Assembly: GCF_023276355.1 (NCBI RefSeq)
Contig: NZ_JALLPL010000001.1
Coordinates: 1,736,001-1,800,000, forward strand
DNA from: Haloplanus sp. XH21
Lineage (GTDB): Archaea; Halobacteriota; Halobacteria; Halobacteriales; Haloferacaceae
Reading direction: 5' to 3'
DNA: 64,000 bases
The position numbers and the translations under genes were made by a program. The notes under the pieces were generated by a model, which did not search any database, was not told the DNA's origin, and saw nothing but the letters and a program-made list of their open reading frames with translations. This document shows positions 3,263-54,873 of this stretch, one piece after another. How positions within the stretch are numbered: the first letter of the stretch is position 1; the number at the start of each line of letters is the position of its first letter.

Positions 3263-5265
3263 CGTGCCGCTTCGATGGCGTCCAGCGCCTCGGGGTTCTC
3301 GATGCTGCTCATATCCCCGAGTTCCTCGCCGCGGTACACCGACGCGATGGCGCGACGAATGATCTTCCCGCTCTGCGTTTTGGGCAGGGCGTCGACGAAC
3401 AGGACCTCACGCGGGCGGAAGGGCTTGCCGAGTTCCGCGCCGACGGTGTCCCGGATGGCCGCGCGCAGGTCGTCGTCCACCGTCGCGTCGGGGTCGGGGA
3501 CGACGTAGAGAACGACGGCCGTTCCCGTCGTCTCGTCGGGCGCGCCGACGGCGGCGGCCTGGTTCACCGCGTCGTGTTCCATCGCCGCTCCTTCGACTTC
3601 CGCCGGGCCGACCTTCCGCCCCGCGACGTTCAGCGCGTCGTCGGCGCGGCCGTGCAGGAACCAGAAGCCGTCTTCGTCTTGCTGCGCCCAGTCGCCGTGG
3701 TCCCAGAGGCCGTCCCAGGTGCTCCAGTACTCCGCCAGATACCGCTCGTCGCCGCTCCAGAGGGACTTGGTCATGCTCGGACAGGAGTCACGCGCGACGA
3801 GGAAGCCCCGTTCGTGGGTGTCGGCGATGGAGTCGCCGTCGCTGTCCACGATGTCGATATCCATCCCCAGGCCCGGCCCGCCGAGCGTGCAGGGCTTGAG
3901 CGATTGAATCGGCAGGGGCATCAGGAAACAGCCCATGATTTCGGTCCCGCCCGAGATGTTGATGATGGGCGTGTCGCCGCCGCCGACTTCCTCGAAGAAC
4001 CAGAGCCAGGACTCGGGGTCCCAGGGTTCGCCCGTCGACCCCAACACGCGGAGACTGGAGAGGTCATAGCCCTCGATCCATTCGTCGCCCCGCTTGCGGA
4101 GCGCGCGGATGGCGGTCGGCGAGATGCCGAACTGGGTGAGTTCGTGGTCGTCGATCATGCGCCAGAACCGGTCGGGGTTCGGATGGTCCGGCGCGCCCTC
4201 GTACATGAACACCGTGCCGCCGTGGGCGTGGGTGCCCATCAGCGACCACGGCCCCATCATCCACCCGATGTCGCTCACCCAGAAGAAGCGGTCGGCGGGC
4301 TTGAGATCCATCCCGAAGTACACTTCCTTGGCGGCCTGAACGAGGGCGCCGGCGTGGGTGTGGACGATGCCTTTCGGTTTCCCCGTCGTCCCCGAGGAGT
4401 ACAGCAGCATCGACTCCTGGCTGGAGTCGAGCGATTTCGTCTCGTATGCGTCGTCGGCCGCACCGACGCTCTCCGCCCAGTGGTCGTCGCGCGCGTCGTC
4501 CCACGGGATCTCGCCGTCGCTCGCGAGGCCGAGACGGTCGTAGACAACCGTCTGCTCGACGTGGCCCGCCTGCTCGATGGCCGCGTCGGCGTCCGCTTTC
4601 AGGCGGACGTGGTCGCCGCGCCGGTAGAAGCCGTCGCCCGTGAACAGGACGCGGGGTTCGGAATCGGCGATGCGGGTGGCCGTCGCGTCGACGCCGAACC
4701 CCGAGAAGATGGGCACCGCGATGGCGCCCACCTTGAAACAGCCGTAGAGGATGGCGGCGACTTCGGGCACCATCGGCATATAGAGGCCGACGGTGTCGCC
4801 CGTGCCGACGCCCCGCGATTCGAGGTAGTTCGCCACCCGGTTGGCGTCCCGGTGGAGTTCGTGGTAGGTCACCTCGCGCACGTCGCCCGGTTCGCCCTCC
4901 CAGATGCAGGCGACTTTGTTGCGCCGTTCGGCGTCCGTCGCGGCGTGCCGGTCGAGGACGTTGTGGGCGGCGTTGAGTCGCCCGCCGGGGTACCACTCCG
5001 TGAACTGCGGGCCGTCGGCGTCGTTGCGGACGGCGTCGTACCCCTCGTCGAACTCGATGTCCAGATAGTCGACGAGTTCGTCCCAGAACCAGTCGACTCC
5101 CGACTGCGGTTCGCCCTCCACCGTCGACGTGGTGCGCTCGATCAACTCGGCGTAGTCGTCGATGTCGTACGTCCGCATGAACTCCCAGACGTTCGTCGAC
5201 TCGACGAAGGACCGAGACGGGTGATAGACGACCGATTCCGTCCCGTACTCCCGTTCGCGTGACAT
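3259..5265 (-). CDS. AMP-forming acyl-CoA synthetase, acetyl-CoA synthetase-like (668 aa)
   Basis: ANL-superfamily acid-thiol ligase that activates a carboxylic acid as an acyl-AMP and then an acyl-CoA. The P-loop SSGTTGKPKG is near residues 291-299. The A5-type segment with GGTEIMG follows, and the C-terminal PKTQSGKIIRR carries the acylation-sensitive lysine. The length and the N-terminal FWDELVDYLDI-type extension fit the acetyl/propionyl-CoA synthetase subfamily. It is the first gene of a two-gene operon with the dehydrogenase at 2057. An 82-bp palindromic repeat lies just upstream. Short-chain specificity is an inference. Confidence 0.86.
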   Translation of the reverse strand: MSREREYGTESVVYHPSRSFVESTNVWEFMRTYDIDDYAELIERTTSTVEGEPQSGVDWFWDELVDYLDIEFDEGYDAVRNDADGPQFTEWYPGGRLNAAHNVLDRHAATDAERRNKVACIWEGEPGDVREVTYHELHRDANRVANYLESRGVGTGDTVGLYMPMVPEVAAILYGCFKVGAIAVPIFSGFGVDATATRIADSEPRVLFTGDGFYRRGDHVRLKADADAAIEQAGHVEQTVVYDRLGLASDGEIPWDDARDDHWAESVGAADDAYETKSLDSSQESMLLYSSGTTGKPKGIVHTHAGALVQAAKEVYFGMDLKPADRFFWVSDIGWMMGPWSLMGTHAHGGTVFMYEGAPDHPNPDRFWRMIDDHELTQFGISPTAIRALRKRGDEWIEGYDLSSLRVLGSTGEPWDPESWLWFFEEVGGGDTPIINISGGTEIMGCFLMPLPIQSLKPCTLGGPGLGMDIDIVDSDGDSIADTHERGFLVARDSCPSMTKSLWSGDERYLAEYWSTWDGLWDHGDWAQQDEDGFWFLHGRADDALNVAGRKVGPAEVEGAAMEHDAVNQAAAVGAPDETTGTAVVLYVVPDPDATVDDDLRAAIRDTVGAELGKPFRPREVLFVDALPKTQSGKIIRRAIASVYRGEELGDMSSIENPEALDAIEAAR

Positions 5266-7862: not shown

Positions 7863-7988
7863 ATCGTCTAGTCCGGCGTTCCACCGTGTTAAAAACCCGG
7901 TTTCGTGAGAGTGATTGTGAATCGGCCGGACCGGCGGGCGAATATGTTCGCCCAGAGGTCGAGAGGGGCCGAGCCCGTAGCGTCGTCC

Positions 7989-9302
7989 ATGTCCATCGTA
8001 CCCGGAGGCGTCGAGACGGACCGCCAGCCACCGCTCTCGATTCCGTTGCGGCATTTCGTCGTCGCGTTGGGGTTCCTGCTCGTCGGCTCCGCGCTCGGCG
8101 TCGCGCACGCCCTCGGCGCCGTCTCGGGGCTCGCGCGCCTCGCGCACGTCCACCTCCTGCTCGTCGGCTTCGTCTGTCTCACCATCGCGGGAGCGATGAC
8201 GCAGTTCGTCCCGGTGTGGTCGGGGACGGATCTTCACTCCCACCGCCTGGCGCGAGGACAACTGTGGCTCATCACCGGGGGGGTGGTCGGCTTCGCCGCT
8301 GCGTTGCTGGCGTCGCGGCCGGCCCTCCTGCCGGTGTTCGGCGTCGCCATGCTCGCCGGGTTCTGGACGCTCGCGTACAACGTCGGCCGGACGCTCGCCA
8401 CGGCCCGACCGCTGGACATCACCGAGCAGCATTTCGTGACGGCGCTCGGGTTTTTCCTCCTGCTCACGGTCCTCGGCGTTGCGCTCGCCGTCGGACTCTC
8501 GACGCCGCTGTTTCCCGGGGCGCGGGGGGCGGTCGTCGCCGCCCACGCCACGCTCGCGGTGTTCGGCGCCGTCCTGACGACCGTCTTCGGCGCGCTGTAC
8601 CAACTCGTGACGATGTTCGGGCAGACGGAACTTCGGGGGTCCGACCACGCGCTCCAGCGGGTCGAGACGGTGGGCTACCCGCTCGGCGTCGTCGGTCTCG
8701 CGCTCGGCCGACTCGTCGCGAACCCGGTGCTGGCCCGCGCGGGCGCCGCACTCCTGCTCACGGGCAGCCTCGCCTTTCTCGTCGTTCTCGCGCGACGGCT
8801 CCGGGACGCGCGCAGCGACTGGACGCCGATGCTGGCCCGCTACGCGCTCCTCGTTCCCGCGCTGCTCTGTTGGGCGCTCCTGACGCTCCCCGTGTGGCTC
8901 CGGACGCCGCTCGGCGAGGACGCCCTGTTCGGCGCCCCCGGGACGAGTCACCTGCTCGCCCTGGTCGTCGTCCTCGTCGTCGTCGGGACGCTCTACCACG
9001 TCGTCCCCTTCCTCGTCTGGGTCCACCGCTACAGCGACCACCTGGGGTTCGCGGACGTCCCCATGATCGACGACCTGTACGACGAGCGGCTCGCGACGGT
9101 CGATCTCGTCCTCGTCGCGGGCGGCGGCACGCTCCTCGTCGCCGGCGACTGGACCGCCCGCACCGACCTCTCACTCGCCGGTGGCGTCGCCCTCGCAGTG
9201 GGATTCGTCGTCTTCGCGGCGAACCTGCTGCACGTCCTGTGGCGACACGCGCCCGACTCCGTTCGCCGGGGGCGGGCGGCCGAGACATCGAGAGACGACT
9301 GA
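7989..9302 (+). CDS. Polytopic membrane protein, heme-copper oxidase subunit I-like (437 aa)
   Basis: About twelve hydrophobic segments. Two histidine-bearing helices read HVHLLLVGF and AHATLAVFG, and a later helix has LYHVVPFLVW. This spacing resembles proteins related to heme-copper oxidase subunit I or NnrS, but the canonical copper-site motif is not seen, so oxidase activity is doubtful. The ATG at 7989 is preferred to an upstream one that would add a hydrophilic tail. It ends directly against the stop codon of 9303-9866. The adjacent opposite-strand cluster with a radical SAM enzyme suggests a heme or metal-cofactor connection, which is an inference. Confidence 0.65.
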   Translation: MSIVPGGVETDRQPPLSIPLRHFVVALGFLLVGSALGVAHALGAVSGLARLAHVHLLLVGFVCLTIAGAMTQFVPVWSGTDLHSHRLARGQLWLITGGVVGFAAALLASRPALLPVFGVAMLAGFWTLAYNVGRTLATARPLDITEQHFVTALGFFLLLTVLGVALAVGLSTPLFPGARGAVVAAHATLAVFGAVLTTVFGALYQLVTMFGQTELRGSDHALQRVETVGYPLGVVGLALGRLVANPVLARAGAALLLTGSLAFLVVLARRLRDARSDWTPMLARYALLVPALLCWALLTLPVWLRTPLGEDALFGAPGTSHLLALVVVLVVVGTLYHVVPFLVWVHRYSDHLGFADVPMIDDLYDERLATVDLVLVAGGGTLLVAGDWTARTDLSLAGGVALAVGFVVFAANLLHVLWRHAPDSVRRGRAAETSRDD

Positions 9303-38651: not shown

Positions 38652-38726
38652 GGGCGCTTAGCTCAGCCTGGACAGAGTGTCTGGCTTCGGACCAGATTGT
38701 CGCGGGTTCAAATCCTGCAGCGCCCA
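38652..38726 (+). tRNA. tRNA-Arg(TCG), integration target
   Basis: A full cloverleaf: acceptor GGGCGCT/AGCGCCC, D-arm GCTC...GAGT, anticodon loop CTTCGGA with anticodon TCG (reads CGA), T-arm GCGGG-TTCAAAT-CCTGC and discriminator A. No intron. The last 22 nt belong to the direct repeat that bounds the integrated element, so integration regenerated an intact gene here. Confidence 0.92.
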
Positions 38727-38741
38727 TCATTCTGCGTGACG
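38705..38741. repeat. attL direct repeat (tRNA 3' end)
   Basis: A 37-bp repeat of 54837-54873. The first 24 bp are identical (from GGTTCAAATCCTG to GCCCATC), one base differs at 38729, and the last 12 bp TTCTGCGTGACG are identical. It begins in the T-arm of tRNA-Arg and extends 15 bp beyond the gene. This is the classical left attachment site of a tRNA-integrating element. Confidence 0.9.
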
Positions 38742-40207: not shown

Positions 40208-40501
40208 TCATCCGATCCGCTCAATTGACTCAAGGCCAGGGACCTCGGCGAGCCGTCTCCTCACCTGCGCATCGGTCATTGTCGTGGTCCAACGAATGGT
40301 GATGCCGACGGTGATGGTCGTTGCCGAAAGCTTCGGAGCGATACCGTGCAGGTCGTCAACCGTGACGGCATCGATGTCCTCGGGACGTGAGATGCGCTCT
40401 TCAGCGTCGGTGACGAGGTCGCCGTCTGCGCCACACGGGATGCGGATCGTGACGACAGCAGTCGTCATCGGCTCTGGGTCGTTGTCACTGGAGATTGCCA
40501 T
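40208..40501 (-). CDS. Hypothetical element protein (97 aa)
   Basis: Begins MAISSDNDPEPMTTAVVTIR; an upstream ATG at 40546 or a downstream one at 40468 is possible. It has alternating beta-type segments (AVVTIRIPCG, AVTVDDLHG, TITVGITIRWTT) and a terminal helix, suggesting a small alpha/beta ferredoxin-like fold. The family is not recognised. It lies between the winged-helix gene and the TROVE gene, all on the minus strand. Confidence 0.55.
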   Translation of the reverse strand: MAISSDNDPEPMTTAVVTIRIPCGADGDLVTDAEERISRPEDIDAVTVDDLHGIAPKLSATTITVGITIRWTTTMTDAQVRRRLAEVPGLESIERIG

Positions 40502-40661
40502 GATGTCACCTCTGTTGAAGAGCGTCGCTCGGGCTGTCTGATTCACGAGCTGCGCTCCGAGTGCGCGAGGGACGATTCGAACGCCCGTCTCGGTCGTGGC
40601 ACGACCGCGTGATACCGAACTACACTACTCGCACTTGACGGGGAAAGATGAGAGGGCAACA

Positions 40662-42191
40662 CTATGCAGGTTCGAAGGCCTCGATTTCATCGATGACCTG
40701 CTTCGGATTTTCGGCGTGTTCGATGAACGAGAGGACGTTCTCCGACCAGCCGGAAACGTTGTAGACGTTCTCGTATCCCTCCGGCGTCACGAGGTCGCCG
40801 TAGGACGCGAGATCGACGAGATACAATGCGGTGTCCGAGGAGACCTCGTCCCGATACGCGTCGAACGCCGCCTTGACCGTCTGGGTATCGCGTGCTGTGA
40901 ATGGCGTGCTGTCCCAAATCTGCATGTCGGTGAAGACGACGATACGCTCGACCGGCTCGCCTCGGTCGCGGAGGTACTCCAGTGCCTTCCAGCCGTTCGT
41001 CGAGTTCCCGACGTCCTCGTCGATGGCCAGTACCGCACCTTGACGCTGCAGTACTGGCGTGTTCACGTGCATCGGAACGGTCTGGAAGTCGTCACCGAAC
41101 CCGCCAACCTCGGCACCTTGGTCGGCCAGGATCGCACCGAACAACGCACCGATTTCCTTCAGCCTGAGCGTGCTGTTCGTGGATAGCGCCATGTCCATCG
41201 ACCCTGAGAGGTCCACGGCGACGAACGTGTCTCCGAGTCCGTCAGGCACCGTCTCGACAGCGACGTCGATTGCGTCCTCCAGCCACTGCTCGACCGCTGG
41301 TGCTTGGACGTCAGCATTCTGGAGCGCGGTGTACGCCTGGTAGTACCGGAACGGGTACAGCGGCGCGTACCGGACTGCTTCCAAGTCAAGGTGCCCTACG
41401 ACGGTGTCCTCGTCGACGCCGGCTTCGAGCATGTTCCGGAGGTTCCGGATCGACGCGAAGATCGGCAGCGTGTATTCGTCGTCTTCGAGGAGCGTCTCCC
41501 AAGCGTCCTGAGTGTTGCCGCGCTCGGAGATGACGGTTTCCCAGGTGTTGGGCGATGGCAACGGTTCGACGTCGGGATAGTCGTCGAGGTCGCCGCGCAT
41601 GAACTCCTCGAATAGCACCTCCTGGTCGGCGTCGACCGGCTTCGGGTGGACGCGATTGAACACGTCGTGCAGCGTTACCTCACGCCGCGACAGCTCGTAT
41701 TTGCCCAGCGTGTAGGCGTCCGCCATCGAAACGAGCGCGTCTTCGATGCCGCGTCGAAGCGGCCACGGGGCAGTCCCGCCGAACAACTGGTCGTGGATAG
41801 CGAGGGCGGTCGCCGTTTCATCCATCCGCTGGATGATCGCCGGTGCCCACTCGCGGATGAGTGACTCGGGTGAGTCATCCTTGAACCGGTCGTCGTTGGC
41901 TGCCAGTACGAGCAGGACCTGTGGAATGTCCCGCAGGTAGAGTTCCTGGCGCGCGTACGCGGCGAGCTTCAGGACGAACTCCGGATCCTCGTCTGCCGCG
42001 GCGTCGAACCGCCGGACGACAGCAGCGAGTTGCTCGTCATCGGTTTCGTAGAACGAGCCCTCCAGCAGTTGGTTGATCGTGCGCTTGTACAGTGCGAGTC
42101 GAGGGTCGGCAGGGTCGAACGCTTCCCCACCTTCGTAGTTGGTGGTTCGCGTCGCCTCCGCGACCGTTTGCTTTGGCTTGTTGAATTCCAT
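40662..42191 (-). CDS. Ro60-family protein: TROVE domain plus von Willebrand A domain (509 aa)
   Basis: TROVE HEAT-repeat ring, residues about 25-300: FVLKLAAYARQELYLRDIPQ, LIREWAPAIIQRMDE, LRRGIEDALVSMADAYTLGK, LPIFASIRNLRNMLEAG. It is followed by a vWA domain whose MIDAS reads DLSGS at residues 327-331 with VFTDMQ at about 419-424. This is the architecture of Ro60/Rsr, which binds Y RNAs and the ends of misfolded RNAs and works with exonucleases in RNA quality control. The length fits Ro60. Upstream on the same strand lie a tRNA-Arg and three tandem Y-like RNAs, matching the usual rsr-Y RNA arrangement of bacteria. Confidence 0.92.
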   Translation of the reverse strand: MEFNKPKQTVAEATRTTNYEGGEAFDPADPRLALYKRTINQLLEGSFYETDDEQLAAVVRRFDAAADEDPEFVLKLAAYARQELYLRDIPQVLLVLAANDDRFKDDSPESLIREWAPAIIQRMDETATALAIHDQLFGGTAPWPLRRGIEDALVSMADAYTLGKYELSRREVTLHDVFNRVHPKPVDADQEVLFEEFMRGDLDDYPDVEPLPSPNTWETVISERGNTQDAWETLLEDDEYTLPIFASIRNLRNMLEAGVDEDTVVGHLDLEAVRYAPLYPFRYYQAYTALQNADVQAPAVEQWLEDAIDVAVETVPDGLGDTFVAVDLSGSMDMALSTNSTLRLKEIGALFGAILADQGAEVGGFGDDFQTVPMHVNTPVLQRQGAVLAIDEDVGNSTNGWKALEYLRDRGEPVERIVVFTDMQIWDSTPFTARDTQTVKAAFDAYRDEVSSDTALYLVDLASYGDLVTPEGYENVYNVSGWSENVLSFIEHAENPKQVIDEIEAFEPA

Positions 42192-42259
42192 GCTATCACT
42201 CGGAGCCGCAACAGGCGACTCCGATACCAGTGCTGCTCACCTGCGGTGCAAGCAGCGAA

Positions 42260-42334
42260 CGTCCCCGGCACGATTCGAACGTGCGACACCCGGCTTCGAA
42301 GGCCGGTGCTCTGTCCAGGCTGAGCTACGGGAAC
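42260..42334 (-). tRNA. tRNA-Arg(TCG), element-encoded
   Basis: Acceptor GTTCCCG/CGGGGAC, D-arm GCTC-AGCCTGGACA-GAGC, anticodon loop CTTCGAA (TCG), T-arm GCACG-TTCGAAT-CGTGC, discriminator G. It has the same anticodon as the tRNA used as attachment site but a different body. It lies between the Y-like RNAs and the TROVE gene. Confidence 0.9.
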
Positions 42335-42340
42335 ATGAGA

Positions 42341-42475
42341 GTGGCCGGAAAACTGCTGGAGCCGGAACAGCGTGCTACCTGGTTACACTACGGTGGACGA
42401 ACGGATTCCACCGCCGGGATTCGAACCCGGACTTCCGGCTCCAGAGGCGAAGGATGGCTCCAACTCGACGGCCAC
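42341..42475 (-). ncRNA. Y-like RNA 1 with permuted tRNA-like domain (YrlA-type)
   Basis: The terminal helix GTGGCCG/CGGCCAC leads to an internal loop TCGAGT facing GCAGTTTTC, then a 7-bp helix TGGAGCC/GGCTCCA. The apical domain has a T-arm (CCGGG-TTCGAAT-CCCGG, 42414-42430). Next is an acceptor-like stem CGGTGGA/TCCACCG closed by a 9-nt loop, then a D-arm (GTGT...GCAC with GG in its loop, 42372-42388). This T-acceptor-D order is a circularly permuted tRNA, as in bacterial YrlA Y RNAs. A 12-bp pairing of 42433-42444 with 42356-42367 is an alternative inner stem. Ends are defined only by the helix. Confidence 0.8.
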
Positions 42476-42486
42476 GGGATGAGTGA

Positions 42487-42634
42487 TGGCGACCGGGAAA
42501 CTGTCGAGGCGGATCCGGTGTCGAGAGCACCCACGTGCTCTCTTTGTCCGGGATGTTCTCGATGGACGAGGCCACCGACAGGATTTGAACCTGCGAGTTC
42601 CTGGCGAAGCAACGCCCCGACTCGACGGTCGCCA
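42487..42634 (-). ncRNA. Y-like RNA 2 with T-arm
   Basis: The terminal helix TGGCGACCG/CGGTCGCCA (9 bp) is followed by loop TCGAGT facing ACAGTTTCC, then helix CGGGGCG/CGCCTCG. The apical part has a T-arm GCAGG-TTCAAAT-CCTGT (42578-42594), a CGGTG/CACCG pairing in the acceptor position, and an 8-bp hairpin GAGAGCAC/GTGCTCTC in place of a simple loop. The loops match those of RNAs 1 and 3 exactly in size. It abuts RNA 3 with no spacer. Confidence 0.75.
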
Positions 42635-42725
42635 CGTGCGGTCGGGAAACTGACGGCGCGACGGGCTATGACTCCCGGTGTGGGCCTTGCGGGCTGAAGG
42701 AACGCACCGTCTCGTCGACCGCACG
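42635..42725 (-). ncRNA. Y-like RNA 3, short form
   Basis: The terminal helix CGTGCGGTCG/CGACCGCACG (10 bp) leads to loop ACGAGA facing TCAGTTTCC, then inner helix CGGTGCG/CGCGCCG. The apex (about 40 nt) starts TTCCTTCAGCC, similar to the CTTCGCC of RNAs 1 and 2, and has no T-arm. It would be a Y RNA lacking the tRNA-like module. It is directly upstream of RNA 2 on the same strand. Confidence 0.72.
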
Positions 42726-42729
42726 CTAT

Positions 42730-42813
42730 GGGAACCGACAGAGGACGCGTCACCGGTCTGCGTCGCTACCTCGCTGGTACGACACAGAGCGTCACTGTCC
42801 ACTGCCAGTTCCC
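42730..42813 (-). ncRNA. Unclassified structured RNA or spacer hairpin
   Basis: The ends pair as GGGAACTG/CGGTTCCC. Inside, TCTGTGTCG pairs with CGACGCAGA (9 bp) and is extended by TACC/GGTA, giving one long hairpin. The WCGAGW and CAGTTTYC loops of the three Y-like RNAs are absent. It lies between tRNA-Glu(TTC) and Y-like RNA 3 and may be a further small RNA or a processing spacer. Confidence 0.4.
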
Positions 42814-42816
42814 GAG

Positions 42817-42892
42817 TGCTCCCGAGGGGAATCGAACCCCCGACCTCCAGTTTGAAAGACTGGCGTCCCTCGCCAACGGAGACTCCGGGAGC
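42817..42892 (-). tRNA. tRNA-Glu(TTC)
   Basis: Acceptor GCTCCCG/CGGGAGC, anticodon stem CCAGT/ACTGG with loop CTTTCAA (TTC), T-arm GGGGG-TTCGATT-CCCCT, discriminator A. Its D-arm sequence (GTCTCCGTTGGCGAGGGAC) is identical to that of tRNA-Gln at 44575, pointing to duplication between the two. Confidence 0.88.
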
Positions 42893-42913
42893 CTCACTGC
42901 AATTGGTTCCGAG

Positions 42914-42987
42914 CGCCTGAGGAAGGACTCGAACCTCCCGCGACCGGGGTAACAGCCCGGCACCCCCACCAGGGGGGTATCCCAGGC
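42914..42987 (-). tRNA. tRNA-Asn(GTT)
   Basis: Acceptor GCCTGGG/CTCAGGC, anticodon stem CCGGG/CCCGG with loop CTGTTAC (GTT), T-arm GGAGG-TTCGAGT-CCTTC, discriminator G. The D-stem is unusually C/G-rich (ACCCC/GGGGT) and base 8 is A rather than T. Confidence 0.82.
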
Positions 42988-42993
42988 ATCGAG

Positions 42994-43066
42994 AGGGCCC
43001 GACGGGATTCGAACCCGCTATCCTGCGGTTAAAAGCCGCTCGCCTGTCCTCATAGGCTCCGGGCCC
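42994..43066 (-). tRNA. tRNA-Lys(TTT)
   Basis: Acceptor GGGCCCG/CGGGCCC, D-arm GCCT...AGGC, anticodon loop CTTTTAA (TTT), T-arm GCGGG-TTCGAAT-CCCGT. The outermost anticodon-stem pair is an A-A mismatch and the apparent discriminator is T. Confidence 0.85.
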
Positions 43067-43069
43067 ACA

Positions 43070-43142
43070 TGCTCCAGCCCGGATTCGAACCGGGGGCTCG
43101 GCCGTGAGAGGGCCGTGAGTTTGGCCGCTACTCCACTGGAGC
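43070..43142 (-). tRNA. tRNA-Glu(CTC)
   Basis: Acceptor GCTCCAG/CTGGAGC, D-arm GAGT...ACTC, anticodon stem CGGCC/GGCCG with loop CTCTCAC (CTC), T-arm CCCGG-TTCGAAT-CCGGG, discriminator A. A second Glu acceptor besides Glu(TTC). Confidence 0.88.
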
Positions 43143-43176
43143 GGGTTGGCCTCTCCTGGAAAGGGTCATCGGCCAG

Positions 43177-43301
43177 TGGGACGGGCAGGATTCGAACCTG
43201 CGTGTTCTCGTTACAAGTGAGATGAAGGAGCCCTCACCGTCGCACCGGATCTCCGGTAAAAACTCGGCGAGAGCGTGAATGCCAGGCTCTTCCACCGTCC
43301 C
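43177..43301 (-). tRNA. tRNA-Thr(TGT) candidate with abnormal 5' half
   Basis: The 3' half is normal: stem TCTCA/CGAGA with loop CTTGTAA (TGT), T-arm GCAGG-TTCGAAT-CCTGC and acceptor CCGTCCC, discriminator A. Two 5' halves are possible. A perfect acceptor GGGACGG at 43301 with a normal-looking D-arm gives 125 nt. A 6-of-7 match GCGACGG at 43243 with a stunted D-arm gives 67 nt. It may be a partial duplication, a non-canonical insertion or a decaying gene. Confidence 0.5.
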
Positions 43302-43305
43302 GCAG

Positions 43306-43377
43306 TCTCCCCGGCACGACTCGAACGTGCGTCTCCTCCTCTACAGGGAGGCATCGTAGCCGCTAGACCACAGGGAG
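43306..43377 (-). tRNA. tRNA-Tyr(GTA)
   Basis: Acceptor CTCCCTG/CGGGGAG with the C1-G72 pair expected for archaeal tRNA-Tyr. Anticodon stem CCTCC/GGAGG with loop CTGTAGA (GTA), T-arm GCACG-TTCGAGT-CGTGC, discriminator A. Confidence 0.88.
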
Positions 43378-43380
43378 AAA

Positions 43381-43463
43381 TGTCGCCGCGAGGATTCGAA
43401 CCTCGGAAGGACCTACGCCAGCGGTTCTGAGCCGCTTCCCGTTGACCACTTGGGTACGGCGAC
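43381..43463 (-). tRNA. tRNA-Leu(CAG)
   Basis: A type II tRNA with a long variable arm. Acceptor GTCGCCG/CGGCGAC, anticodon stem AGCGG/CCGCT with loop CTCAGAA (CAG), T-arm CGAGG-TTCGAAT-CCTCG, discriminator A. Confidence 0.9.
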
Positions 43464-43503
43464 AGGGAATACAGGGAATCGTGTACCGGTACAGTGACCG
43501 GCA

Positions 43504-43585
43504 TGCCGCCACCAGGATTCGAACCTGGGAAGGACTAACCACACGGTCCTCGACCGTGTCCGTTTGACCACTCTGGCATGGCGGC
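43504..43585 (-). tRNA. tRNA-Leu(GAG)
   Basis: A type II tRNA: acceptor GCCGCCA/TGGCGGC, anticodon stem CACGG/CCGTG with loop TCGAGGA (GAG), T-arm CCAGG-TTCGAAT-CCTGG, discriminator A. Position 33 is C instead of the near-universal T. Confidence 0.85.
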
Positions 43586-43632
43586 ACAATTCGAGAATCG
43601 CTAATGACTCTGCGAATCACTTCGGCACGCAG

Positions 43633-43718
43633 CGGCGGGAGAGTGATTTGAACACTCGTGCCCTCGCGGACGCCGCGCTTCCAACGCGGTCCCTTGGCCG
43701 GGCTAGGGAAATCCCGCC
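43633..43718 (-). tRNA. tRNA-Ser(GGA)
   Basis: A type II tRNA: acceptor GGCGGGA/TCCCGCC, D-stem TCCC/GGGA, anticodon stem CCGCG/CGCGG with loop TTGGAAG (GGA), long variable arm, T-arm GAGTG-TTCAAAT-CACTC, discriminator G. Confidence 0.88.
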
Positions 43719-43720
43719 AA

Positions 43721-43802
43721 CGGTGAGACGGAGAGTCGAACTCCGAAGCCTCGCAGCTCTCGGTTTCAAACCGAGCGCAGTCACCAATCTGCTTGTCTCA
43801 CC
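43721..43802 (-). tRNA. tRNA-Ser(TGA)
   Basis: A type II tRNA: acceptor GGTGAGA/TCTCACC, D-stem GCAG/CTGC, anticodon stem CTCGG/CCGAG with loop TTTGAAA (TGA), long variable arm, T-arm CGGAG-TTCGACT-CTCCG, discriminator G. Only 2 bp separate it from tRNA-Ser(GGA). Confidence 0.86.
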
Positions 43803-43944
43803 ACACGCCGTCGGAGCAAGCCCCAACGAGCCCCCTTCGCGCTACTCACGGGATGTCGGAAGATGCGTATTGCTCAGCTTCTGACCCTCGCTTTTGGAGT
43901 AAGCGAGGTCACCAACACCCAGTCACGGTAGGGGCGAAAGGCGG
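43803..43944. other. Spacer with a strong hairpin in the tRNA block
   Basis: On the minus strand TGACC-TCGCTT pairs with AAGCGA-G-GGTCA across a loop ACTCCAA (about 43882-43913), a long stem with one bulge. It could end or process the transcript of the small zinc-ribbon gene. No acceptor or T-arm surrounds it, so it is not a tRNA. Confidence 0.45.
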
Positions 43945-44085
43945 TCACCTCGTTCCGTGGAAGTAAGCGCCGTCGCCGGTGACGCAGATTCTCACACTTC
44001 CAATCGTGTCGATGGACGTTGTTTCACCGAGCGGGACGTGGCGGAACGCTTCCTCGTTGCAGTCAGGGCAAATATTCTTTGACAT
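43945..44085 (-). CDS. Zinc-ribbon microprotein inside the tRNA array (46 aa)
   Basis: ATG at 44085 opens MSKNICPDCNEEAFRHVPLG, continuing with a beta-type VRICVTGDGAYFHGTR. The single CPDC knuckle resembles haloarchaeal small zinc-finger proteins, although a second CxxC is missing. It lies between tRNA-Ser(GCT) (3 bp upstream) and tRNA-Ser(TGA), so it must be expressed from the same transcript region. Confidence 0.55.
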   Translation of the reverse strand: MSKNICPDCNEEAFRHVPLGETTSIDTIGSVRICVTGDGAYFHGTR

Positions 44086-44087
44086 CA

Positions 44088-44170
44088 CGCCGTGTCCCGG
44101 AGTTGAACCGGGAACCCGTCGCCGGGGCTGGCGTAGCAGGCCAGTGGGGTCACCATTCCCCAGACACGGC
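44088..44170 (-). tRNA. tRNA-Ser(GCT)
   Basis: A type II tRNA: acceptor GCCGTGT/ACACGGC, D-stem GGGG/CCCC, anticodon stem CTGGC/GCCAG with loop CTGCTAC (GCT), long variable arm, T-arm CCCGG-TTCAACT-CCGGG, discriminator G. Confidence 0.9.
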
Positions 44171-44174
44171 ACAC

Positions 44175-44247
44175 TGAGCCGACGAGGATTCGAACCTCGG
44201 TCCTGTGCGCCCAAGGCACAGATCGTCGCCCGCTGGACCATCGGCTC
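44175..44247 (-). tRNA. tRNA-Pro(TGG)
   Basis: Acceptor GAGCCGA/TCGGCTC, anticodon stem TGTGC/GCACA with loop CTTGGGC (TGG), T-arm CGAGG-TTCGAAT-CCTCG, discriminator A. Confidence 0.88.
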
Positions 44248-44497
44248 ACGGATACTGCCGAGCGTTCGGCAGTTGATTATCTATCTGTACGACTTTCCAA
44301 CTGCGCAACCACGAACGGGTAGTCGTGATTGTGCGTCTCATCGCGGGGGCGTACTTCGGGTGCTCCCGGGAATACCACACCGGCTCATGTAGGTTGCAGA
44401 CCCTGCTGGGCCCAGCATCGTGGGAACGATCCAGCTGATCGCACCAACGGGCTGCCTACCTCGATGGGTATCCCCACGTGGCCACGCCACGCATCCA
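44248..44497. other. Hairpin-rich 250-bp spacer in the tRNA array
   Basis: No tRNA or convincing frame. Several stems are visible: ACTGCCGA/TCGGCAGT (44255-44274); a 12-bp imperfect stem around GCGCAACCACGA/TCGTGATTGTGC (about 44303-44334); the 14-bp palindrome TGCTGGGCCCAGCA (44404-44417); then TCGT/ACGA and CGATC/GATCG hairpins. It may encode another structured RNA. Confidence 0.45.
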
Positions 44498-44571
44498 CGC
44501 CGACGCCGGGATTTGAACCCGGATCACGGCCGTGACAGGACCGTATGCTCGCCGGATTACACCACGTCGGC
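44498..44571 (-). tRNA. tRNA-Asp(GTC)
   Basis: Acceptor GCCGACG/CGTCGGC, anticodon stem CGGTC/GGCCG with loop CTGTCAC (GTC), T-arm CCGGG-TTCAAAT-CCCGG, discriminator G. Confidence 0.9.
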
Positions 44572-44574
44572 ATG

Positions 44575-44650
44575 TCGCCCCGGCCGGAATCGAACCGGCG
44601 ACCTCCGGATTCAAAGTCCGGCGTCCCTCGCCAACGGAGACTCCGGGGCT
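44575..44650 (-). tRNA. tRNA-Gln(TTG), first tRNA of the array
   Basis: Acceptor AGCCCCG/CGGGGCG with an unpaired A1-G72, anticodon stem CCGGA/TCCGG with loop CTTTGAA (TTG), T-arm GCCGG-TTCGATT-CCGGC, discriminator A. The D-arm equals that of tRNA-Glu(TTC). An open first pair is compatible with glutaminyl systems that favour weak 1-72 pairs. Confidence 0.85.
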
Positions 44651-53611: not shown

Positions 53612-54622
53612 CTACAGATTATCGAGGTAGTCCCTCCGCTGTTCCATCTTCTCCTGTTCCGTGCGGCGGTCGTAGTGCTGTTCGATCACTCTCGGACTGA
53701 CGTTCGCGCGGTCGCTGACGACCTTATCCGGCATATCGTTATTGAGGCTGTGCGTGATGCTTCCGCGCCGGATGGCGTGTGGGCTGACGCTCGATGGGCA
53801 CTTCGAGGCCGCGTGCTGGACGGTGCCCTCACAGGTTTCCGGATCGCGGTCATGAGGGCACTCTTCGCCGTACGTGCACGGACGCGTCCATCGGTACACG
53901 TAGGTGCGGAGTGTCGTCTTCTGCAGGCGACCTTGCCGAGAGGCCAGTAACGGCTCTCGGTCGTATTCGTCGGTTACGTTGGGTCGCTTGTTGTCCAGCC
54001 AGTCGTCGAGGAGATCGCAGATGTCGTCTGAGAGTGCAACGAGTCGCTCACCATCGCCCTTGTTCTTGATCGGGGTGCCGGTATCGGGGCGATGCCGGAT
54101 TTTCACGTACTGTTCTTCTGAGTTGTAGTCATCGACGTCTATCGCGTGGACGCCGCCGACTCGCATCATCGTGTGCCACATCAACGTGAGTGCGACGTGC
54201 TGCGGTTCGGCGTACTCGTATTTCTCCATGTGCGAGAGAACCGACGAGGCCTGGTCGCTGTCCATCATCACGTCCCGGGAGTTCTCGTCCGGGGTGATCG
54301 CCGGGGACAGCACTTTCTGGCTGAGATCCTGTTCGACGCCGTCGACGGCTTCCAGCCACCGAACGAACACTCGCAGGGTGTCCATCTGCGTCTTCTCACT
54401 GACCTTGTTCAGGTCGCCGTCGTCACGCCGCCAGAGTCGGTACTCGTGCAGCTGGCGACCCGTGAGGGTGTTGAGGTTCTCGATGCCCTTCTCGTGACAC
54501 CAGCGGACGAAGTGCTGGAGCCGGTACTTCTTCCCTTTGAGTGAGGCCTCAGCCAGTTCGTTCTGCTTGTCTTTCAGGTACAGTTCGAGCGCGGTCTCGG
54601 GATCGATTGGTTCGAGATCCAT
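53612..54622 (-). CDS. Tyrosine recombinase, likely integrase of this element (336 aa)
   Basis: XerC/D-like: core-binding domain (residues about 10-110), then Arg in HTMMRVGGVHA, H-x-x-R in SPHAIRRGS and Tyr in VIEQHYDRRTE. It has the same RPC...CPHDRDP...C...KCPSS patch as the integrase at 50618. The ATG at 54622 begins MDLEPIDPE. It lies about 215 bp from attR, with the gene pointing away from the att site. This placement suits the active integrase. Confidence 0.88.
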   Translation of the reverse strand: MDLEPIDPETALELYLKDKQNELAEASLKGKKYRLQHFVRWCHEKGIENLNTLTGRQLHEYRLWRRDDGDLNKVSEKTQMDTLRVFVRWLEAVDGVEQDLSQKVLSPAITPDENSRDVMMDSDQASSVLSHMEKYEYAEPQHVALTLMWHTMMRVGGVHAIDVDDYNSEEQYVKIRHRPDTGTPIKNKGDGERLVALSDDICDLLDDWLDNKRPNVTDEYDREPLLASRQGRLQKTTLRTYVYRWTRPCTYGEECPHDRDPETCEGTVQHAASKCPSSVSPHAIRRGSITHSLNNDMPDKVVSDRANVSPRVIEQHYDRRTEQEKMEQRRDYLDNL

Positions 54623-54739
54623 GGTTGGTCGTTTCGAGTCAAGCGAATCCCACGAGTCCCGGTTACTGCCTATCCCGAACCATCTACTACAGCGCCTGAG
54701 GCGGCCAAAATGAAGGGTAGTCACGCTCAATGACCAGGG

Positions 54740-54808
54740 CCTGCAGCGCCCACTTGCTGCCGCGAACAACCCCGTGAGCGGCAGCAATGGAACCGCGAAG
54801 GATTTGAA
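54740..54808. repeat. Recombination-arm region next to attR
   Basis: Three motifs lie between the integrase and attR. CCTGCAGCGCCCA (54740-54752) is a 13-bp copy of the tRNA 3' end. TTGCTGCCGC/GCGGCAGCAA (54754-54763, 54778-54787) is a 10-bp inverted repeat. AGGATTTGAA (54799-54808) is an inverted copy of the TTCAAATCCT inside attR. They may be integrase arm sites or remnants of earlier insertions. Confidence 0.6.
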
Positions 54809-54836: not shown

Positions 54837-54873
54837 GGTTCAAATCCTGCAGCGCCCATCCTTCTGCGTGACG
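54837..54873. repeat. attR direct repeat
   Basis: Right copy of the 37-bp repeat at 38705-38741, with one mismatch at 54861. It carries only the tRNA T-arm 3' part and acceptor, not a full tRNA. The spacing between copies is 16,132 bp. Confidence 0.9.

Follow-up and report, generated by a model that had tools for sequence, protein, structure and literature searches.

A Ro60 homologue, predicted Y-type RNAs and a tRNA array on an integrated element of Haloplanus sp. XH21

The locus described here lies in a 64-kb stretch of the Haloplanus sp. XH21 genome (NZ_JALLPL010000001.1, positions 1,736,001 to 1,800,000; hereafter the window, whose own numbering is used throughout) and belongs to an element of about 16 kb. 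Read on the minus strand from 44650 downward, it comprises 14 tRNA genes together with four other structured RNAs, a gene encoding a 509-amino acid protein of the TROVE/Ro60 type (40662-42191), a tRNA-Gly gene and a gene encoding a small protein; it is very probably an archaeal Ro60 accompanied by Y RNAs. The original prediction described three Y-like RNAs and counted three in total: the three are there, and a fourth lies at 43178-43301. The element is bounded by a 37-bp att repeat (97%) within tRNA-Arg (TCG): repeat comparison places the left copy at 38705-38741, in the host gene (38652-38741, plus strand, called by ARAGORN), and the right copy at 54837-54873 (plus strand). A minus-strand integrase-family (tyrosine recombinase) gene (53612-54787; PF00589, 49 bits) adjoins the right copy, in agreement with the tRNA-integrated mobile element first proposed.

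The TROVE gene is, by profile and predicted fold, a Ro60 homologue, as had been claimed. Its product scored 70 bits against PF05731 in the Pfam profile search (curated cut-off 23) and matched phrog_850, an RNA-binding protein, in the PHROG search. The structure was predicted with moderate confidence by AlphaFold2 from an alignment of 42 homologues (mean predicted local distance difference test score, pLDDT, 74.5; a single-sequence prediction gave 36.4). The top PDB matches of this model in Foldseek were full-length fold matches to the Ro60 of Thermus phage phiLo (9kop/9l5y), Xenopus Ro60, Deinococcus radiodurans Rsr and human Ro60 (entries 9kop, 9l5y, 1yvp, 2i91 and 2nvo; E 1.7e-19 to 2.1e-12; query template modelling score 0.53-0.62); 9l5y and 9kop were also the only matches in the PDB sequence search. 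Residues D326, S328 and S330 are invariant across 42 sequences and form a DxSxS which we take to be the metal-binding motif.

Ya (42637-42723), Yb (42488-42633) and Yc (42340-42476), all on the minus strand, are real conserved structured RNAs, predicted to be of Y type from the stems and loops that they share. Their ends pair as a terminal stem with an internal loop (UCGA/RRUUUUC-type), composed of: an outer stem of 7-9 pairs; the 5' loop ACGA or UCGA; an inner stem of 8-9 pairs; the motif WUNCUUC; a variable apical part; and the 3' loop AGUUUYC. The loop motifs are strongly conserved across loci. The apical part of Ya consists of two small hairpins without clear tRNA likeness, and that of Yb of a T arm and two hairpins, one closed and acceptor-like, the other additional. 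In Yc it is a circularly permuted tRNA module: T arm, closed acceptor and D arm come first and the stem follows, with the Y stem on the anticodon side of the permuted tRNA. This tRNA-like module is present in Yc, partial in Yb and not seen in Ya; most of the short Y RNAs retain the T arm alone.

Covariation was analysed in alignments of Yc (A1, 15 sequences), short Y RNAs (A2, 14 sequences) and Yb (A3, 19 sequences; outer stem, inner stem, T arm). Paired cells amounted to 98.8%, 98.3% and 99.5%, respectively, falling to 31-56% in the slid controls, and the pairs changed on both sides numbered 11, 8 and 12; none of 500 shuffles equalled either measure. The acceptor pairs of Yc covary between loci (e.g. 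GGTGGA/TCCACC, GGCGGA/TCCGCC and GAGCGG/CCGCTC), and its D-arm pairs also show compensatory changes.

The fourth RNA (43178-43301, minus strand), which ARAGORN calls as a tRNA-Thr with an intron, appears from alignment A7 to be a tRNA-Y chimera: it has an acceptor, a T arm and an anticodon-like arm, the last preceded by a Y domain that is capped. The insert, in which the Y elements are permuted, runs inner strand, AGUUUU, tetraloop-capped outer stem, CGA, inner strand and UCCUUC, and is followed by the anticodon-like arm, the T arm and the acceptor. In A7 (13 sequences) 99.3% of the cells are paired and five pairs are changed on both sides (0/500 shuffles); the anticodon triplet differs from locus to locus. 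The permuted descriptor for the chimera gave 46 sense and one antisense hits, and none in 36 shuffles. Half of the sense hits (23) were rejected as chimeras, 21 being cross-pairing of neighbouring Y RNAs and two being neither; the other 23 have an acceptor and a T-arm-like part. Since Yc is opened at the Y stem and the chimera at the acceptor end, with the Y stem capped, the two seem to be circular permutations of one design, by sequence a single composite whose opening lies at a different end in each. The common design looks like a tRNA with a predicted Ro60 handle before the anticodon arm.

Descriptors and a covariance model were used to survey how specific the Y RNAs are to TROVE. With the first descriptor there were 180 hits in 53 loci compared to 0.55 per shuffle over 33 shuffles; with the motif descriptor there were 165 sense and 31 antisense matches over the 53 TROVE loci, and 0.5 per shuffled locus (36 shuffles). 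Each of the 48 loci whose TROVE gene is full-length or nearly so had at least one upstream match; the five loci left out of this count (L044, a second view of a contig, and the TROVE fragments L054, L055, L056 and L089) gave none in four cases and one in the other. Because of the 0.5 hits per shuffled locus, single hits were distrusted without a model or a fixed position, and further tests were made. Covariance model R1 was built from 14 short Y RNAs, none from the window and one from the second locus copy of the same genome. In the 64 kb it found exactly the three RNAs originally described beside TROVE at E<0.01 (Yb, 50.4 bits, E 2e-10; Ya, 49.3 bits, E 4e-10; Yc, 47.7 bits, E 1e-9), the next-best match reaching 18.5 bits (E 0.06).

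R1 produced 96 hits (E<=0.01) across 44 of 391 Halobacteria genomes, 93 of them on the same strand as a TROVE gene and at most 884 nucleotides upstream of it. An upstream hit was found in 41 of the 43 genomes having a near-full-length TROVE gene, bearing out the expectation that structured RNAs would recur near other archaeal TROVE genes, and the remaining two (G022 and G329) gave hits at E 2e-6 and 4e-6 once the fetched loci were searched. Five genomes holding just TROVE fragments gave no R1 hit, and three weak hits (E 1e-3 to 6e-3) fell in the TROVE-less genomes G053, G208 and G324. Among the named genomes, R1 hits were obtained at 41/42 haloarchaeal TROVE loci, every one on the TROVE strand and upstream; the one lacking a hit, L183, is a copy interrupted by an internal stop. 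No Y RNA hit was obtained in the three viral contigs found (L198-L200; 29-33% identity). Two further observations concern related loci. An extra Y class (GACTGGG-TCGA-GTGGGAG type) lies about 2-5 kb upstream of TROVE in six Haloarcula-like loci (L040-L043, L045 and L046), in five of them immediately before tRNA-Tyr. The second locus copy of the genome studied here (G000:C3:87581-89104; L057) has Y RNAs, eight upstream tRNAs and a TROVE frame broken by one TGA.

The tRNA genes upstream of TROVE were called by ARAGORN, all on the minus strand, within 42259-44650 (2.4 kb): tRNA-Arg (TCG) at 42259-42335; tRNA-Glu (TTC) at 42816-42892; tRNA-Asn (GTT), tRNA-Lys (TTT) and tRNA-Glu (CTC) at 42913-43142; tRNA-Tyr (GTA), tRNA-Leu (CAG) and tRNA-Leu (GAG) at 43305-43586; tRNA-Ser (GGA) and tRNA-Ser (TGA) at 43632-43803; tRNA-Ser (GCT) and tRNA-Pro (TGG) at 44087-44248; and tRNA-Asp (GTC) and tRNA-Gln (TTG) at 44497-44650. 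About fifteen had been placed upstream on one strand; fourteen are, and tRNA-Gly (GCC; 40561-40634, minus strand, ARAGORN) lies immediately downstream of TROVE, a position at which a tRNA was called in 39 of the 48 loci. With 14 tRNAs in 2.4 kb, the array falls within the tRNA clusters with a TROVE gene as defined in the excerpted text of PMC6333295 (at least 10 tRNAs, at least two per kb). The predicted recurrence of such arrays beside TROVE was found, at least five same-strand tRNAs lying within 8 kb upstream in 45 of the 48 full-length loci (opposite strand, two in all), but the array is not obligatory. The three exceptions are halovirus HGTV-1, a contig end and L048, where the Y RNA is present with no tRNA.

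Compared with the host isoacceptors encoded by intronless genes, thirteen of the array tRNAs show 52-72% identity, and G37 is replaced by A37 in four (Arg, Glu(TTC), Gln and Leu(CAG)). By their sequences, the array tRNAs look like an element-borne set and not recent host copies. Other features of the array were noted. Its tRNAs are intronless where the host Lys and Gln tRNAs have introns. The long spacer between tRNA-Asp and tRNA-Pro (44249-44496, minus strand) looks structured by eye and has a TCGA-containing stem; R1 gave no match there. A short open reading frame (ORF) with a CPDC pair (zinc-ribbon-like) at 43945-44085, minus strand, was matched in 23/53 loci, the window counted. An Rfam YrlA hit at 44500-44624 (25 bits, cut-off 69) was discarded as an artefact of two tandem tRNAs in permuted order.

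TROVE was found in 12 of 294 genomes of the phylum surveyed, five of them belonging to a distant archaeal family (f16). All five f16 TROVE loci were examined. In four, the chimera lies directly upstream of TROVE and the 5-16 kb retrieved contain no array; the inner stem of one of these chimeras is ACCGCTTC/GAAGTGGT and that of another ACCGCCCC/GGGGTGGT. At the fifth locus there is a YrlA-like RNA (33 bits). The constant partner of TROVE is the Y RNA, and the tRNA array is an addition seen in the haloarchaea of this analysis. Between chimera and TROVE, three f16 loci (L208, L210 and L211) show by eye another short, open Y-like RNA, whose outer stem is GGAGG/CCTCC, and R1 gave local hits in L211 (E 0.0016) and L210 (E 0.0063). 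In HGTV-1 (L005), two open Y-like RNAs were observed, one at 4945-5016 before the chimera and one at about 7889-7990 before TROVE, the second by eye only; of the two motif-descriptor hits in this virus, only that at -3056 was sensible.

Nine bacterial TROVE loci were searched with YrlA. Three of them, in a Deinococcus plasmid, a Rhizobium plasmid and a Xanthomonas phage, have a match of at least 40 bits (gathering score 69) close to the TROVE gene. Inspection by eye showed a stem with TTACTTC or TTCCTTC after it upstream of TROVE in three of the nine (Deinococcus, L141; Xanthomonas phage, L144; Allomeiothermus, L150), and a GTTCYCC-like 3' stretch is also present in L141 and L144; the Rfam YrlA consensus has AUGCUU where the UNCUUC-type motif stands. 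Three side observations were made at these loci: several tandem YrlA-like RNAs before TROVE in Xanthomonas phage 10KY502B (L144), one of which overlaps an annotated tRNA-Thr; a 57-bit match to a permuted tmRNA, together with a tRNA, downstream of TROVE in the Brevundimonas phage (L143, 6773-7028); and a gene encoding an RNB-domain ribonuclease directly after TROVE in the Allomeiothermus plasmid (L150).

Other features flank the TROVE gene of the window. The small conserved protein of no known family (40208-40546, minus strand) has a tblastn match in 42/53 loci, the window counted; 39 of the 42 matches sit 1.6-2.6 kb past the start of TROVE, and the other three comprise two upstream matches and one far downstream. 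Its Pfam, PHROG and PADLOC scans gave no match; it could be a partner of the Ro60 particle. Another long hairpin (42724-42813, minus strand) lies between tRNA-Glu and Ya; by eye, its stems vary and still pair in most of 32 aligned loci, and it could be a fifth RNA of the locus. A near-invariant hairpin, TCGGAGTCGCC..GGCTCCGA, is located immediately 5' of the TROVE start codon (42200-42224, minus strand) and is a possible site of TROVE autoregulation.

Taken together, we consider it reasonably probable that the archaeal Ro60 binds the four predicted Y-type RNAs encoded next to it, of which three include tRNA-like parts, in particles likely to survey and tend tRNAs, chiefly the divergent ones of the element. 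We infer the expression of the Y RNAs, their binding by Ro60, the particle itself and its function. The TROVE protein would grip the Y stem as a handle, and the tRNA-shaped part would either sit where RNA enters the Ro60 ring or recruit tRNA-handling enzymes; misfolded or damaged tRNAs might then be held, refolded, repaired or handed to decay, and the plasmid or virus would thereby keep translating while host tRNAs are limiting or attacked. Surveillance and maintenance of tRNAs is favoured because of the linkage to the array, the tRNA shape of the RNAs, the RtcB, ligases and nucleotidyltransferase of HGTV-1, and the link of the bacterial repair operon to tRNA damage in the excerpted text of PMC7790460. 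As the main role it is a tentative proposal, with a chance somewhat below even. Equally tentative is a wider picture, to which we would also give just under half our confidence: an archaeal Y RNA lineage would have grafted a complete tRNA onto a Ro60-binding hairpin placed between D arm and anticodon arm, the permuted bacterial YrlA and the chimera would be one composite opened differently, and haloarchaeal plasmids and viruses would have expanded it into a portable translation-insurance kit made of divergent tRNAs and a guarding Ro60 particle.

Several points weigh against this interpretation. The C-terminal vWA model PF25045 scored 25.6 bits on the TROVE protein, slightly below its cut-off of 27.7. 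None of Ya, Yb and Yc was matched by Rfam RF02553 (YrlA) at E values up to 5, so that Rfam alone misses all three; they are accordingly not filed as RF02553, though they would work like YrlA. R1 gave no hit on HGTV-1 and nothing significant on the bacterial loci L141-L144. The YrlA search reached just 27-29 bits in the Brevundimonas and Microcystis phages (in the latter across tRNAs) and gave no hit at the TROVE loci of phage phiLo, Pseudomonas FeN3W, Vibrio phage Va1 and Allomeiothermus. Regarding the statistics, alignments A1-A3 were taken from descriptor hits, a bias toward pairing, and the pairing percentages are therefore partly built in, the compensatory changes less so; one of the five measures, further pair types, was attained by 8 (Yc), 71 (short Y RNAs), 31 (Yb) and 54 (chimera) of 500 shuffles. 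The search of the 391 genomes scored no more than 11 first-look candidates in each, the 14 sequences of R1 match by construction and sit in the surveyed sets, many of the surveyed loci are closely related, and the named and 391-genome sets overlap. Regarding function, two haloarchaeal loci of the named set (L187, 6 kb, and L188, which is L048) have a Y RNA and no tRNA, and the f16 loci have a Y-type RNA without a tRNA array in the fetched stretch; care of the element's own tRNAs is consequently not the whole function. No RtcB or RtcA domain was found by Pfam in the 13 region proteins scanned, which are part of the element's ORFs.

Two other functions were weighed, both of which we regard as unlikely. 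In the first, the tRNA-shaped Y RNAs are decoys or shields which sequester or inhibit tRNA-cutting defence nucleases, Ro60 chiefly stabilises these decoys, and the array replaces the lost tRNAs. The idea was voiced for bacterial YrlA, with no YrlA fragments seen on tRNA cutting (excerpted text of PMC7790460). The divergence of the array tRNAs from those of the host, the four changes at position 37 and the element or virus setting fit it as well, but the ordinary anticodon loop, the target of an anticodon nuclease, is missing or altered in Yc and the short Y RNAs, and the f16 loci carry the RNA without the array. In the second, about as improbable, the Y RNAs tether Ro60 to a host 3'-5' nuclease, which in archaea we take to be the exosome, for the degradation of structured RNA, and the tRNAs are mere neighbours or substrates. 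The Deinococcus precedent of Rsr, Y RNA and PNPase (cited in the excerpted text of PMC7790460) and the RNB ribonuclease gene adjoining TROVE in Allomeiothermus speak for such a decay machine, but it leaves the strong tRNA-array linkage unexplained, and no nuclease gene was found among the conserved neighbours (ORFs checked).

It is much less probable still that an ordinary tRNA gene, its intron removed by splicing, accounts for the fourth RNA. ARAGORN calls it as such and intron-bearing host tRNAs exist, but the would-be intron holds Y-domain stems and loops with compensatory changes, similar domains are found in HGTV-1 and f16, loci differ in the anticodon triplet, and the chimera stands beside TROVE in array-less lineages. 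A reading of the Y-like RNAs as array tRNAs decaying into pseudogenes, with TROVE as a passenger, is barely credible: pseudogenes were reported in almost all archaeal tRNA clusters, introns being counted too (excerpted text of PMC6333295), but the covariation compared with shuffles and slid controls, the conserved loop motifs, the specificity of the model for TROVE loci and the occurrence without arrays all argue against it.

If the locus is indeed an archaeal Ro60 with Y RNAs, the Ro60-Y RNA particle occurs in archaea too and has a defined RNA signature there, Y RNAs mimic tRNA in two forms related by circular permutation, and Ro60 has a tie to the tRNA arrays of mobile elements. The chimera points to a possible route from tRNAs to permuted Y RNAs, is a natural construct for probing the tRNA-like half, and indicates that automatic annotation can misfile Y RNAs as intron-containing tRNAs.

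The composition of the locus had been thought to be without a described counterpart. This does not hold for TROVE and the tRNA cluster, an association published in 2019: Morgado and Vicente reported a TROVE gene at 20/29 archaeal tRNA clusters, some on plasmid-like or provirus-like contigs, and these clusters are the locus type of the window (excerpted text of PMC6333295). It may hold for the Y RNAs and the chimera, which that text does not mention; we found no published description of an archaeal Y RNA or chimera in the literature searched, the main Y RNA papers lying outside it, and both may be new. The bacterial repair operon rsr-yrlBA-rtcBA likewise combines Ro60 with a tRNA-like Y RNA and a tie to tRNA damage (excerpted text of PMC7790460). 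The TROVE genes of jumbo phages and Borgs are similar in residing on mobile elements with RNA ligases and tRNAs (5-23 per genome in Borgs), Y RNAs being unreported in the excerpts available (PMC7824862, PMC11208441). HGTV-1 resembles the window in its TROVE protein (45% identical), its large tRNA set and its chimera, annotated as a tRNA with an intron; it differs in that the array is about 13 kb from TROVE and that the virus is annotated with RtcB, two RNA ligases, a tRNA nucleotidyltransferase and a lysyl-tRNA synthetase. The bacterial Ro60 (Rsr)/YrlA pair (RF02553; 6CU1) is alike in that the Y RNA gene adjoins the Ro60 gene, in the order T arm, closed acceptor, D arm, and in the UNCUU motif after the stem, the YrlA structure 6CU1 being a circular permutation of tRNA in the excerpted text of PMC11472068. 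Unlike bacterial YrlA, the haloarchaeal loci have one to about five Y RNAs each, short forms with the T arm only, a chimera in tRNA order and a large tRNA array.

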